DNA of 64,000 bases, taken from positions 124,001-188,000 of the forward strand of contig CANKHA010000001.1 of NCBI GenBank assembly GCA_947481685.1, in the 5' to 3' direction. This stretch comes from Bradyrhizobiaceae bacterium. Its GTDB lineage: Bacteria > Pseudomonadota > Alphaproteobacteria > Rhizobiales > Xanthobacteraceae. The position numbers and the translations under genes were made by a program. The notes beneath the pieces were generated by a model, which saw only the letters and a program-made list of their open reading frames with translations, had not been told where the DNA came from and ran no database searches. Positions within the stretch are counted from its first letter, which is position 1. Each line of letters opens with the position of its first letter. This document shows positions 4,682 to 6,773 of this stretch, piece by piece.

Positions 4682-5401
4682 ATGCAGAAAATCGCTTATC
4701 TCGCAGCGCTCGCGGCTTTCGCGGGCGCTGTTGCGTTGCCGCAGGCGCAAGCCGAAACGCGCGGTGTCGTCGAGCTTTTCACCAGTCAGGGCTGCTCGTC
4801 ATGCCCACCGGCCGACAAGCTGATGGGCGAACTGATCCACGATCCCTCGCTCGTCGTCTTCAGTCTCCCGGTCGATTACTGGGATTCGCTCGGCTGGAAG
4901 GACACGCTCGCCGACCCGCGCAATGCCGAACGGCAACGCGCCTATGCCCGCGTGCGCGGAGAGCGCGGCGTCTATACGCCACAGGCGGTCATCAACGGCA
5001 CCACGCATGTGGTCGGAAGCGACAACGCGGCGTTGCAGCAGGCAGTCGCATCCACGCGCAGCAATCTCACGGTTGCTGTGAATGCGGCGGTCAGCGGCGG
5101 CACACTCAGCGTCGATGTGCCCGCGGGCAAGGGCTCTGGCGAAGTCTGGGTTTATGCCCTGGCGAAGGAAGTGCCGGTTGCGGTTGCGCGCGGTGAGAAC
5201 CGCGGTCGCACGGTGACCTATCACAACGTCGCGCGCAGCTGGCAGAAGCTCGGCGACTGGAATGGCAAGGAAGCGCTCTGGAGCATTCCGCTCAGTCAGC
5301 TCACGGCCAGCGGCGCCGATACCGCAGCGGTGCTGGTGCAAGGTGGCAGCGCAAGCGATCCCGGTGCGATGCTCGGCGCTACCGTTGCCTCGCTCCTATA
5401 A
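4682..5401 (+). CDS. Secreted DUF1223 family protein (thioredoxin-like)
   Basis: A 239-residue protein with a clear signal peptide (hydrophobic core 4-20, likely cleavage after AQA near residue 24). Right after it comes the DUF1223 hallmark VVELFTSQGCSSCPPAD, with Cys38 and Cys41 forming a CxxC motif in a thioredoxin-like fold. Family members are exported and of unproven function; a periplasmic thiol or redox role is a reasonable inference. The start is fixed by a strong GGAGG five bases upstream. It stands alone, between two REP-like repeats and a strong hairpin. Confidence 0.88.
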   Translation: MQKIAYLAALAAFAGAVALPQAQAETRGVVELFTSQGCSSCPPADKLMGELIHDPSLVVFSLPVDYWDSLGWKDTLADPRNAERQRAYARVRGERGVYTPQAVINGTTHVVGSDNAALQQAVASTRSNLTVAVNAAVSGGTLSVDVPAGKGSGEVWVYALAKEVPVAVARGENRGRTVTYHNVARSWQKLGDWNGKEALWSIPLSQLTASGADTAAVLVQGGSASDPGAMLGATVASLL

Positions 5402-5419
5402 TTCGCAATCGTGCGCGCA

Positions 5420-5650
5420 TGAAAAAAGGGCCGGCTAACAAGCCGGCCCTTAAGAATTGGGGATTGAACGTACACGGAGCTTCGAACTACTCGGTGCCAT
5501 CAATGGGCCCGGCCCTTACCGAACATCGGGGGGCTGGGGGGCTGAGGAATCCGAAGCTCGTTTTCGGACCGGGCCCTTGAGGCAACAGTCTTCTGTATCG
5601 CCTCGCAGCAGGGCGATGGCTTGGCTGAAATCGGGCCGTATTGTGGTGCG
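5420..5650 (-). ncRNA. Candidate structured small RNA ending at an intrinsic terminator
   Basis: This gene-free stretch (5402-5793) holds strong secondary structure. Read on the minus strand, a segment at 5544-5559 pairs with 5479-5494 over 15 of 16 positions (two of them G-T). It encloses a small CCGA-TGT-TCGG hairpin (5518-5528). GGGCCCGG/CCGGGCCC arms also occur. The minus strand then runs into a perfect 11-base hairpin followed by six Ts. The terminator orientation and the absence of an ORF support a minus-strand RNA of roughly 150-230 nt. I do not recognise the family; a 6S-like rod is possible but unproven, and tmRNA, SRP RNA and RNase P signatures were not seen. The 5' end is a guess. 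Confidence 0.4.
5422..5451 (-). terminator. Intrinsic terminator (minus strand)
   Basis: Perfect arms AAGGGCCGGCT (5426-5436) and AGCCGGCCCTT (5441-5451) surround a four-base loop. Six As on the left (5422-5427) read as a T-run on the minus strand. It can therefore end a minus-strand transcript; it may also slow plus-strand readthrough from the DUF1223 gene. Confidence 0.75.
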
Positions 5651-5672
5651 GTCTAACGAATCCGTGATCGTT

Positions 5673-5694
5673 GAAATTGCTTGGAAATTGCTTG
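5673..5694. repeat. Exact tandem duplication of an 11-mer
   Basis: GAAATTGCTTG occurs twice head to tail in the intergenic region, just upstream of the DUF2794 gene and near the possible 5' end of the candidate minus-strand RNA. It could be a doubled protein-binding site or a simple slippage duplication. Confidence 0.6.
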
Positions 5695-5793
5695 AAAAAC
5701 CGCCGCTCCAAGCCGAAAAAATCAACATCGCAGGGACTTGCCGTGACAAGCGGGCGGCGCGATCATGACGGTTCAACGAAGGAGGCGCCGCCA

Positions 5794-6177
5794 ATGGATT
5801 TTGGCTCCGGCGACACTGAACCAAGCAAGCCCCGCGTGGGCGACGTTGCGGGCCGATTTCCCCCCGCCGCCCCCGTCAATCAAGTGACCTTCAGCCGACA
5901 CGAACTCGACCGCATCCTCAATCTTTATGGCCGCATGGTCGCCATCGGCGAGTGGCGCGACTACGCGATCGATTTCATGAAGGACCGCGCGGTATTTTCG
6001 ATTTTCCGGCGCACGTCCGAAGTACCGATCTATCGCATAGAGAAAGATCCGAAACTGGCGCGCAAGCAGGGTGTCTATAGCGTGATCTCGGCGACCGGCC
6101 TGATCGTGCGCCGTGGCCCAGAGCTTGATCGCGTATTGCGCGCCATCGACAAGCCGCTGCGGATCGTCGCGATTTAG
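5794..6177 (+). CDS. DUF2794 domain-containing protein
   Basis: A 127-residue protein matching the alphaproteobacterial DUF2794 family: the conserved block starts at VTFSRHELDRILNLYG and runs through WRDYAIDF, AVFSIFRR and RIEKDPKL to the C-terminus. Function is unknown. The reading frame extends upstream to 5671, but an ideal GGAGG lies eight bases before the ATG at 5794 and gives the family's usual length, so I chose that start. There is no signal peptide or membrane segment. It converges with the GNAT gene, and the stop codons overlap by four bases. Confidence 0.85.
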   Translation: MDFGSGDTEPSKPRVGDVAGRFPPAAPVNQVTFSRHELDRILNLYGRMVAIGEWRDYAIDFMKDRAVFSIFRRTSEVPIYRIEKDPKLARKQGVYSVISATGLIVRRGPELDRVLRAIDKPLRIVAI

Positions 6178-6698
6178 ACCGGCGGTTCGTCCGCGCCGCT
6201 GCCCAGCGCGCGCTGCATCAGCAACGTATCCAGCCACTGCCCGTGCTTGAAGCCGACGTGGTCGAGCGTGCCGGTGATGCGAAAGCCTGCAGCCTTGTGC
6301 AGCGCTATCGAACCAGCCTGTGTGCGTGAATCGCCGATCACCGCGATCATCTGGCGAAAGCCGCGTTTCGAACATTCATCGATCAGGGCGTCCAGCAGGG
6401 CGCGGCCGACACCGCGGCGTTGCGCTGCCGGTGCGACATAGACTGAATTTTCGACGGTGAAGCGATAGGCGGGGCGGAGCCGGTAAGTGCCGGCATAGGC
6501 ATAGCCGGCGACTGCGCCATCCCATTCCGCGGTCAGATAGGGGAATCCGGTTTCGGTGATATGGCGCATCCGCATCGCCATTTCAGCCTGGTCCGGTGGC
6601 TCCAGCTCGAATGTCGCCGTGCCGTTGGCGACATCGCCGGCATAGATGCCGGTAATGGCGGGAATGTCGGAAAGGCTGGCCGGGCGGATCGAAAGCAT
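6174..6698 (-). CDS. GNAT family N-acetyltransferase, phosphinothricin/MnaT-like
   Basis: A 174-residue GNAT acetyltransferase. The start IRPASLSDIPAITGIYAGDV and the motif VENSVYVAP followed by the acetyl-CoA loop QRRGVG (residues 93-98) match the Pat/Bar and YncA/MnaT group, which acetylates phosphinothricin, methionine sulfoximine or methionine analogues. AGFRITGTLDHVGFK near the C-terminus is also typical. The true substrate cannot be told from sequence. It overlaps the DUF2794 stop tail-to-tail and has no operon partner. Confidence 0.85.
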   Translation of the reverse strand: MLSIRPASLSDIPAITGIYAGDVANGTATFELEPPDQAEMAMRMRHITETGFPYLTAEWDGAVAGYAYAGTYRLRPAYRFTVENSVYVAPAAQRRGVGRALLDALIDECSKRGFRQMIAVIGDSRTQAGSIALHKAAGFRITGTLDHVGFKHGQWLDTLLMQRALGSGADEPPV

Positions 6699-6726: not shown

Positions 6727-6773
6727 GCGCATGATCCGATCCGAAAACCGGTCCCCACCTCCGGATCATGCGC
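6727..6773. repeat. REP-like palindrome with ACCGGT core
   Basis: Arms GCGCATGATCCG and CGGATCATGCGC (12 bases, perfect) flank GAAAACCGGTCCCCACC-type sequence. A close copy with the same GCGCATGATC arms lies at 42245-42293. It sits upstream of the GNAT gene and beyond the Bax-inhibitor terminator. Confidence 0.75.

Follow-up and report, generated by a model that had tools for sequence, protein, structure and literature searches.

The sRNA BjrC174 of Bradyrhizobium japonicum reportedly goes back to a description by Madhugiri in 2012. In the accessible parts of PMC4842269 it is described as an abundant sRNA whose start has the highest promoter activity among the validated starts without a mapped promoter. 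A second sRNA, PmaR (C10) of Agrobacterium tumefaciens, is described in the accessible parts of PMC6234868 as a spoon-like stem with a C-rich end loop. In that account G47 closes the loop, CCCA occupies positions 58-61, G62 is the best T1 site, and G18, G19, and G81 are further cut sites. The loop is accessible, and exchange of its CCCA for UUUU abolishes target regulation. PmaR binds the murB and ampC mRNAs in vitro; without it the murB, cheD, ampC, minD, and bioA mRNAs are less stable and that of atu3504 is more stable. PmaR is more abundant at pH 5.5 than under neutral conditions and peaks in stationary phase. Its authors placed PmaR between two hypothetical genes, considered it confined to Agrobacterium and a single Rhizobium strain, and suggested a possible recent origin.

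Positions 5420-5650 of the window (the whole 64-kb stretch of DNA that was analyzed) hold, as judged from sequence comparison, a genuine sRNA gene of the known Rfam family BjrC174, and the window element is an unannotated member of that catalogued family. The sequence-only reading of the window had proposed a structured minus-strand RNA at this place that could be matched to no family. The RNA itself is borne out by its fold, by the Rfam match, and by covariation in relatives; the lack of a family was overturned by the Rfam search. The RF02355 (BjrC174) match spans model positions 1-201 of 201 (5668-5424, minus strand) and reaches 64.1 bits, the gathering score being 45. Nothing else in the window matched Rfam at gathering level, and RF02355 had no second match in this genome. 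Across the order, RF02355 was matched in 100 of 397 genomes at an E value of ≤0.001, 33 of them over the family cut-off, and 70 of these 100 loci (30 + 40) were used for the comparisons below, the 30 lowest-ranked being left out.

The minus-strand RNA and its fold

The RNA lies in a gap flanked by the DUF1223 and DUF2794 genes, both on the plus strand, and it is therefore divergent from DUF2794 and convergent with DUF1223. The features of the locus are as follows.

4682..5401, plus strand: DUF1223 gene, the convergent neighbor (PF06764, 220.8 bits)
5421..5587, minus strand: predicted sRNA transcript of about 167 nt (fold z, -5.55)
5422..5451, minus strand: intrinsic terminator, from the terminator scan
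5424..5668, minus strand: RF02355 BjrC174 match over the full model (64.1 bits; cut-off, 45)
5459..5468, minus strand: single-stranded TTCAATCCCC before the terminator, unpaired in the fold and a possible second pairing site
5485..5591, minus strand: covarying core hairpin, matched by covariance model R1 (minus-strand score, 74 bits; plus-strand score, 16.9 bits; the window sequence is one of the 58 used to build R1)
5530..5544, minus strand: C-rich loop CAGCCCCCCAGCCCC, the proposed mRNA-pairing site, near constant in the 70 loci
5594..5599, minus strand: possible -10 element GATACA, tentative and proposed from its position only
5612..5636, minus strand: GCC-N8-GCC-N8-GCC, the proposed ChvI box, conserved in relatives and resembling the Sinorhizobium meliloti ChvI consensus
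5794..6177, plus strand: DUF2794 gene, the divergent neighbor (PF10984, 132.8 bits)

The minus strand of 5420-5650 folds at -93.9 kcal/mol, whereas shuffled copies average -72.1 (z, -4.12; none of 200 folded as well). The predicted transcript (5587-5421) is more extreme, again with none of 200 shuffles as good, and its minimum-energy and centroid structures are nearly identical. Its rod consists of 19 pairs (11 + 4 + 4) with two single-base bulges, close to the helix of 16 positions and 15 pairs that the sequence-only reading had described. Beyond the rod lie an inner hairpin whose C-rich loop measures 21 bases, a short hairpin, and a single-stranded stretch, and the 3' end carries an 11-pair terminator hairpin followed by a U-run. 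Two further points of that reading stand: the terminator (stem at 5451-5426 with the T-run after it on the minus strand) has the orientation needed to end a minus-strand transcript, being the sRNA gene's own, and no minus-strand gene precedes the RNA, its upstream neighbor DUF2794 being divergent. The terminator alone proves nothing, because 1.6 such sites are expected by chance in the 1.6 kb scanned; the element is set above chance by the comparison with relatives, which shows both conservation and covariation. The ATCCCC-type motif of the tail is a weak signal, seen in 11 of the 70 loci (mean in shuffles, 1.6). The 5' end was placed at about 5587 on two grounds, the closing stem, which is conserved, and the PmaR numbering of relatives. 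The RF02355 model includes about 80 positions upstream of this predicted start, and the Bradyrhizobium RNA thus may begin earlier.

Alignment A1, from which model R1 was built, comprised 58 of the 70 loci, 12 near-duplicates having been dropped by eye. Across these 58 distinct sequences, 94.5% of 1,035 cells were paired. Compensatory changes, which the sequence-only reading had asked for among relatives, were abundant, with 15 of the 18 pairs of the core hairpin showing double-sided changes. The covariation score was 0.466, compared with 0.254 for shuffled versions, and 0 of 500 shuffles reached any of five measures; related sequences can beat shuffles without structure, and it is the count of double-sided changes that carries the case. 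When the partners were slid by one column, pairing fell to 57 to 60%, a comparison in which the true register has some advantage, the structure having been derived from the same alignment. The loop, CAGCCCCCCAGCCCC or the same with one C fewer, was near constant in the 70 loci while the stems changed.

Other RNA families were also considered and set aside. The suhB/mmgR and BjrC1505 matches were subthreshold and covered only the terminator end. CC3664 scored 14.1 bits, which is near noise, and its model matched none of 190 genomes of the class, this genome included.

Spread over the order and place beside DUF2794

Model R1 matched 256 of the 397 genomes of the order and DUF2794 was present in 375 of them, both result tables holding best matches only. 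These homology searches show that the predicted RNA is far wider than the RF02355 title "Bradyrhizobiaceae" suggests and is spread over much of the order. The DUF2794 gene lay on the 5' side of the RNA, on the opposite strand, in 59 of the 70 loci and across 16 taxonomic families. Of the remaining 11, three were on contigs that end too soon, seven had room but no DUF2794, and one was inverted. Among 80 named DUF2794 loci (Bradyrhizobium, Rhodopseudomonas, Afipia, Microvirga, Bosea, and others), 73 had the RNA, in every case upstream on the opposite strand; this is not an order-wide rate, because those loci are the closest to the query. The inversion and the seven loci without DUF2794 indicate that the RNA is an independent unit.

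Several arrangements depart from the common one. At the inverted locus (G077, 1501-1717) the sRNA follows DUF1223 in the same orientation and is directed toward DUF2794. In family f50 (three loci: L041, L045, and L060) the RNA lies away from DUF2794, and in G050 the two are about 3.2 Mb apart in contig coordinates, among the matches listed. Ten genomes had two or three R1 matches each among the matches listed (G025, G046, G048, G131, G257, G267, G285, G312, G339, and G351), and the RNA may be duplicated in them.

A draw of 385 genomes from across the class contained the exact 17-base loop in two, this genome and G626. The latter lies outside the order and was rejected as a member, its loop match being a CAGCC-type simple repeat without stems. 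The exact loop pattern was missing in four of the five order members of the same draw, including the Bradyrhizobium-like G035. It therefore misses real members, and absence of the RNA outside the order is only suggested. Caulobacter has DUF2794 but gave no RF02355 match.

DUF2794 (5794-6177) shares its upstream region with the sRNA and is listed without known function in Pfam. The Brucella member of DUF2794, BAB1_0087, is tabulated in a paper on gene silencing by MucR. Farther along the window, a 12-base perfect inverted repeat (GCGCATGATCCG / CGGATCATGCGC, at 6727-6773) resembles a repetitive palindrome and has 10 near copies in the window compared with 5.3 by chance, about twice the expectation.

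Relation to PmaR, promoter region, and mode of action

One family of genomes, f24, is probably the Rhizobiaceae, judging by its Bartonella-like members and its carriers of a telomere resolvase. R1 matched 11 of the 14 f24 DUF2794 loci (L196-L209) at E values of <0.01 on the divergent strand, one match being partial; the versions of the RNA opposite DUF2794 in this family are diverged. The L198 and L202 genomes, both of genus g431, are called Agrobacterium-like because they are the only two with an above-cut-off telomere resolvase. R1, which was built without any f24 sequence, matched them with E values of 7.8e-06 and 1.5e-05. Both loci fit all nine PmaR landmark nucleotides in one register and with the same structural roles, the landmarks having been checked in these two Agrobacterium-like genomes and not in the strain C58 sequence itself. 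In 1.77 Mb (both strands) there are 12 occurrences of the bare landmark pattern, two of them being L198 and L202 and 10 lying elsewhere, so that by our own estimate a chance fit within one 900-nt region amounts to about half a percent. Twenty diverged loci, L198 and L202 not among them, gave no gathering-level Rfam match. In the window RNA itself, fold and covariation reveal the same long stem with a single-stranded C-rich end loop as in PmaR. BjrC174 and PmaR are probably one family by these sequence likenesses, with PmaR as its Rhizobiaceae form: the nine landmarks at the DUF2794 site, together with the R1 match, point to PmaR as the local form of an old RNA.

Further inspection of the upstream region revealed GCC-N8-GCC-N8-GCC ahead of the predicted start in 47 of the 70 loci, where shuffles average 0.035 and never exceed 1, and in 46 of 62 named loci, where they average 0.09 and never exceed 2. 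The shuffles keep base composition only, and the 62 are those of the 73 RNA-bearing named loci whose loop fits the strict pattern. With GTC allowed, the counts rise to 58 of 70 and 58 of 62. No triple was found at the other spacings from N5 to N11, and among other spacings of 4 to 14 bases only N4 occurred in more than one locus of either set (4 and 9). The exact 8-base spacing, an 11-bp period, suits DNA helical phasing. At L198 and L202, GCC, GTC, and GCC stand at -47, -36, and -25 by PmaR numbering. The triple is not rare in the window alone (2 observed, 3.25 expected), and even a GCC pair is absent in 4 of 20 families. Among 18 more distant loci the pair was present in 14 and the triple in only 6 (GTC allowed), that of L199 lying too far upstream. 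A scan of 4800-6400 found no sigma-70 consensus promoter.

The S. meliloti ChvI consensus is N-GCC-N8-GCC as cited, at second hand, in the accessible part of PMC9731502, in which the Caulobacter ChvI motif is reported as different. A GCC-N8-GCC box of the ChvI-controlled type is present upstream of the window RNA, at 5612-5636 on the minus strand. Four adjacent genes of the genome, for an OmpR-type regulator, a ChvG-type kinase, an HPr kinase, and EIIA, form an arrangement of the chvI-chvG-hprK type. The best NCBIfam model for the kinase is ChvG, at 486 bits, which is under the cut-off of 740 of that Caulobacter-specific model. The regulator had no ChvI-named model among the best 25 listed and is called ChvI because of its position in the cluster. 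In the open-access literature neither a ChvI-PmaR link nor RF02355 was found; subscription papers and supplements lay outside this search, and such a link may exist there. Control of the sRNA promoter by ChvI through the GCC repeats is plausible on the strength of the box and its conservation. ChvI would bind the 11-bp-spaced repeats at 5612-5636 and activate the sRNA, transcription would start near 5587 on the minus strand, and the sRNA would act post-transcriptionally as an arm of the ChvG-ChvI response to envelope and acid stress.

By analogy with PmaR, the window sRNA would act in trans, its C-rich loop pairing with G-rich stretches of several mRNAs, in their 5' leaders or coding regions. 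Such pairing would mostly stabilize the mRNAs and would destabilize at least one. The near-fixed C run thus conceived probably grips mRNAs during envelope stress. Conserved targeting of murB was unsupported over 29 genomes (29 of 30 murB loci, L221 being left out since its contig begins near the gene): the best leader duplex was no better than the rest of the locus, with a rank fraction of the best leader site of 0.029 (median) or 0.061 (mean), compared with about 0.027 expected for the best of about 36 windows. When the whole 3-kb stretch was ranked in the Agrobacterium-like G793, the top site fell in front of murB, 81 nt from its assumed start; this was not so in G889.

Alternative readings and comparison with described RNAs

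We consider it likely that the element is a trans-acting sRNA of the BjrC174 family that uses PmaR-like loop pairing and is activated by ChvI, which is the best joint explanation. The wider proposal, in which BjrC174 and PmaR are a single ancient sRNA that occurs in most of the order (GTDB Rhizobiales/Hyphomicrobiales), usually opposite DUF2794, directly activated by ChvI, and with a tandem C-rich seed hardly changed in most families, stands evenly in the balance. Against ChvI control, one may suppose a BjrC174-family sRNA whose GCC repeats are transcribed within the 5' portion of a longer RNA or are bound by some other regulator. This is possible, and we lean against it. The RF02355 model reaching some 80 positions above the predicted start is consistent with a longer RNA, the triple is absent from some families and from most of the 18 more distant loci, and the ChvI box here is a proposal made from sequence. 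The supposition has to contend with a spacing of exactly 8 bases in 47 of 70 loci, far over the shuffled mean and suited to helical phasing, and with the PmaR numbering, which places the repeats upstream of +1 in two loci. A loop whose main role is to bind a protein or act as a decoy, in place of seeding on mRNAs, seems unlikely to us. Its near constancy over many families exceeds what seed pairing to changing targets needs and murB gave no conserved target, but for PmaR direct mRNA binding, and regulation lost on loop exchange, are reported in the accessible parts of PMC6234868.

Other readings dispense with an sRNA of this family altogether. The element lies between two genes and its palindromes fold on both strands, R1 giving 16.9 bits on the plus strand, as might be expected if it were only the terminator or 3'-end structure of the plus-strand DUF1223 mRNA or a cis element of DUF2794. 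We hold this to be very improbable, given the 74 bits and the T-run on the minus side, the 7 of 70 loci that have room but no DUF2794, and the one locus at which the element is inverted. The rod-like fold had suggested a 6S-type RNA to the sequence-only reading, an identification that now has practically nothing to recommend it: RF02355 matches here, RF00013 had no gathering-level match in the window, and the genome's 6S RNA lies on another contig (G000:C6:43626-43780; RF00013, 76.4 bits). A small protein would fit the long mechanical open reading frames that overlap on both strands (102 and 103 amino acids), but no frame was stop-free in more than 33 of the 70 homologues (153 nt around the loop, all frames) and conservation tracks base pairing, so that a coding stretch is hardly to be credited.

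New here are the reach of the family far beyond its Rfam title, PmaR as its apparent Rhizobiaceae form, and a conserved ChvI-like promoter repeat; together they give the family a testable regulator and mode of action. The seeds of sRNAs are said to turn over fast, and the family raises the question of a target-binding loop that is nearly fixed across most of an order. If the favored reading of a ChvI-activated, trans-acting sRNA is true, the RNA would be a standing arm of the response to envelope and acid stress in organisms ranging from nodule bacteria and their photosynthetic relatives to the agrobacteria, and PmaR, for which a recent origin was suggested, would be an old RNA in local form.

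Among described RNAs, GsrN of Caulobacter, as far as the accessible descriptions go, shares a C-rich 5' loop by which it pairs with G-rich mRNA and raises katG expression; it differs in being activated by sigma-T and usually lying near the general stress locus. EcpR1 (SmelC291) of S. meliloti, an sRNA of the stress response, also has members in several families of Rhizobiales, but is described as lying between divK-pleD and rpmG and having the loop motif UCCGCCGCAUCU. Both were set aside by locus and loop, from their descriptions. ChvR of Caulobacter, also compared by description, resembles the proposed system in being an sRNA under ChvI-ChvG control and differs in its locus, the recF region (further sources for these comparisons, each accessible in part: PMC5869019, PMC7143759, PMC4414408, PMC3927594, PMC10746212, PMC6237742, and PMC12403871). 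PmaR has, at the Agrobacterium-like loci, the loop ACCCTTTACCCCCAGCCCCC, unlike that of the window RNA. The window member scores 64.1 bits against RF02355, compared with 148 to 188 in genera g2, g4, and g6 of the same family and 67.3 in g3, and it has one extra C in the first C-run. With BjrC174 of B. japonicum USDA 110 it shares the match over the full model, the same hairpin, and the same loop.
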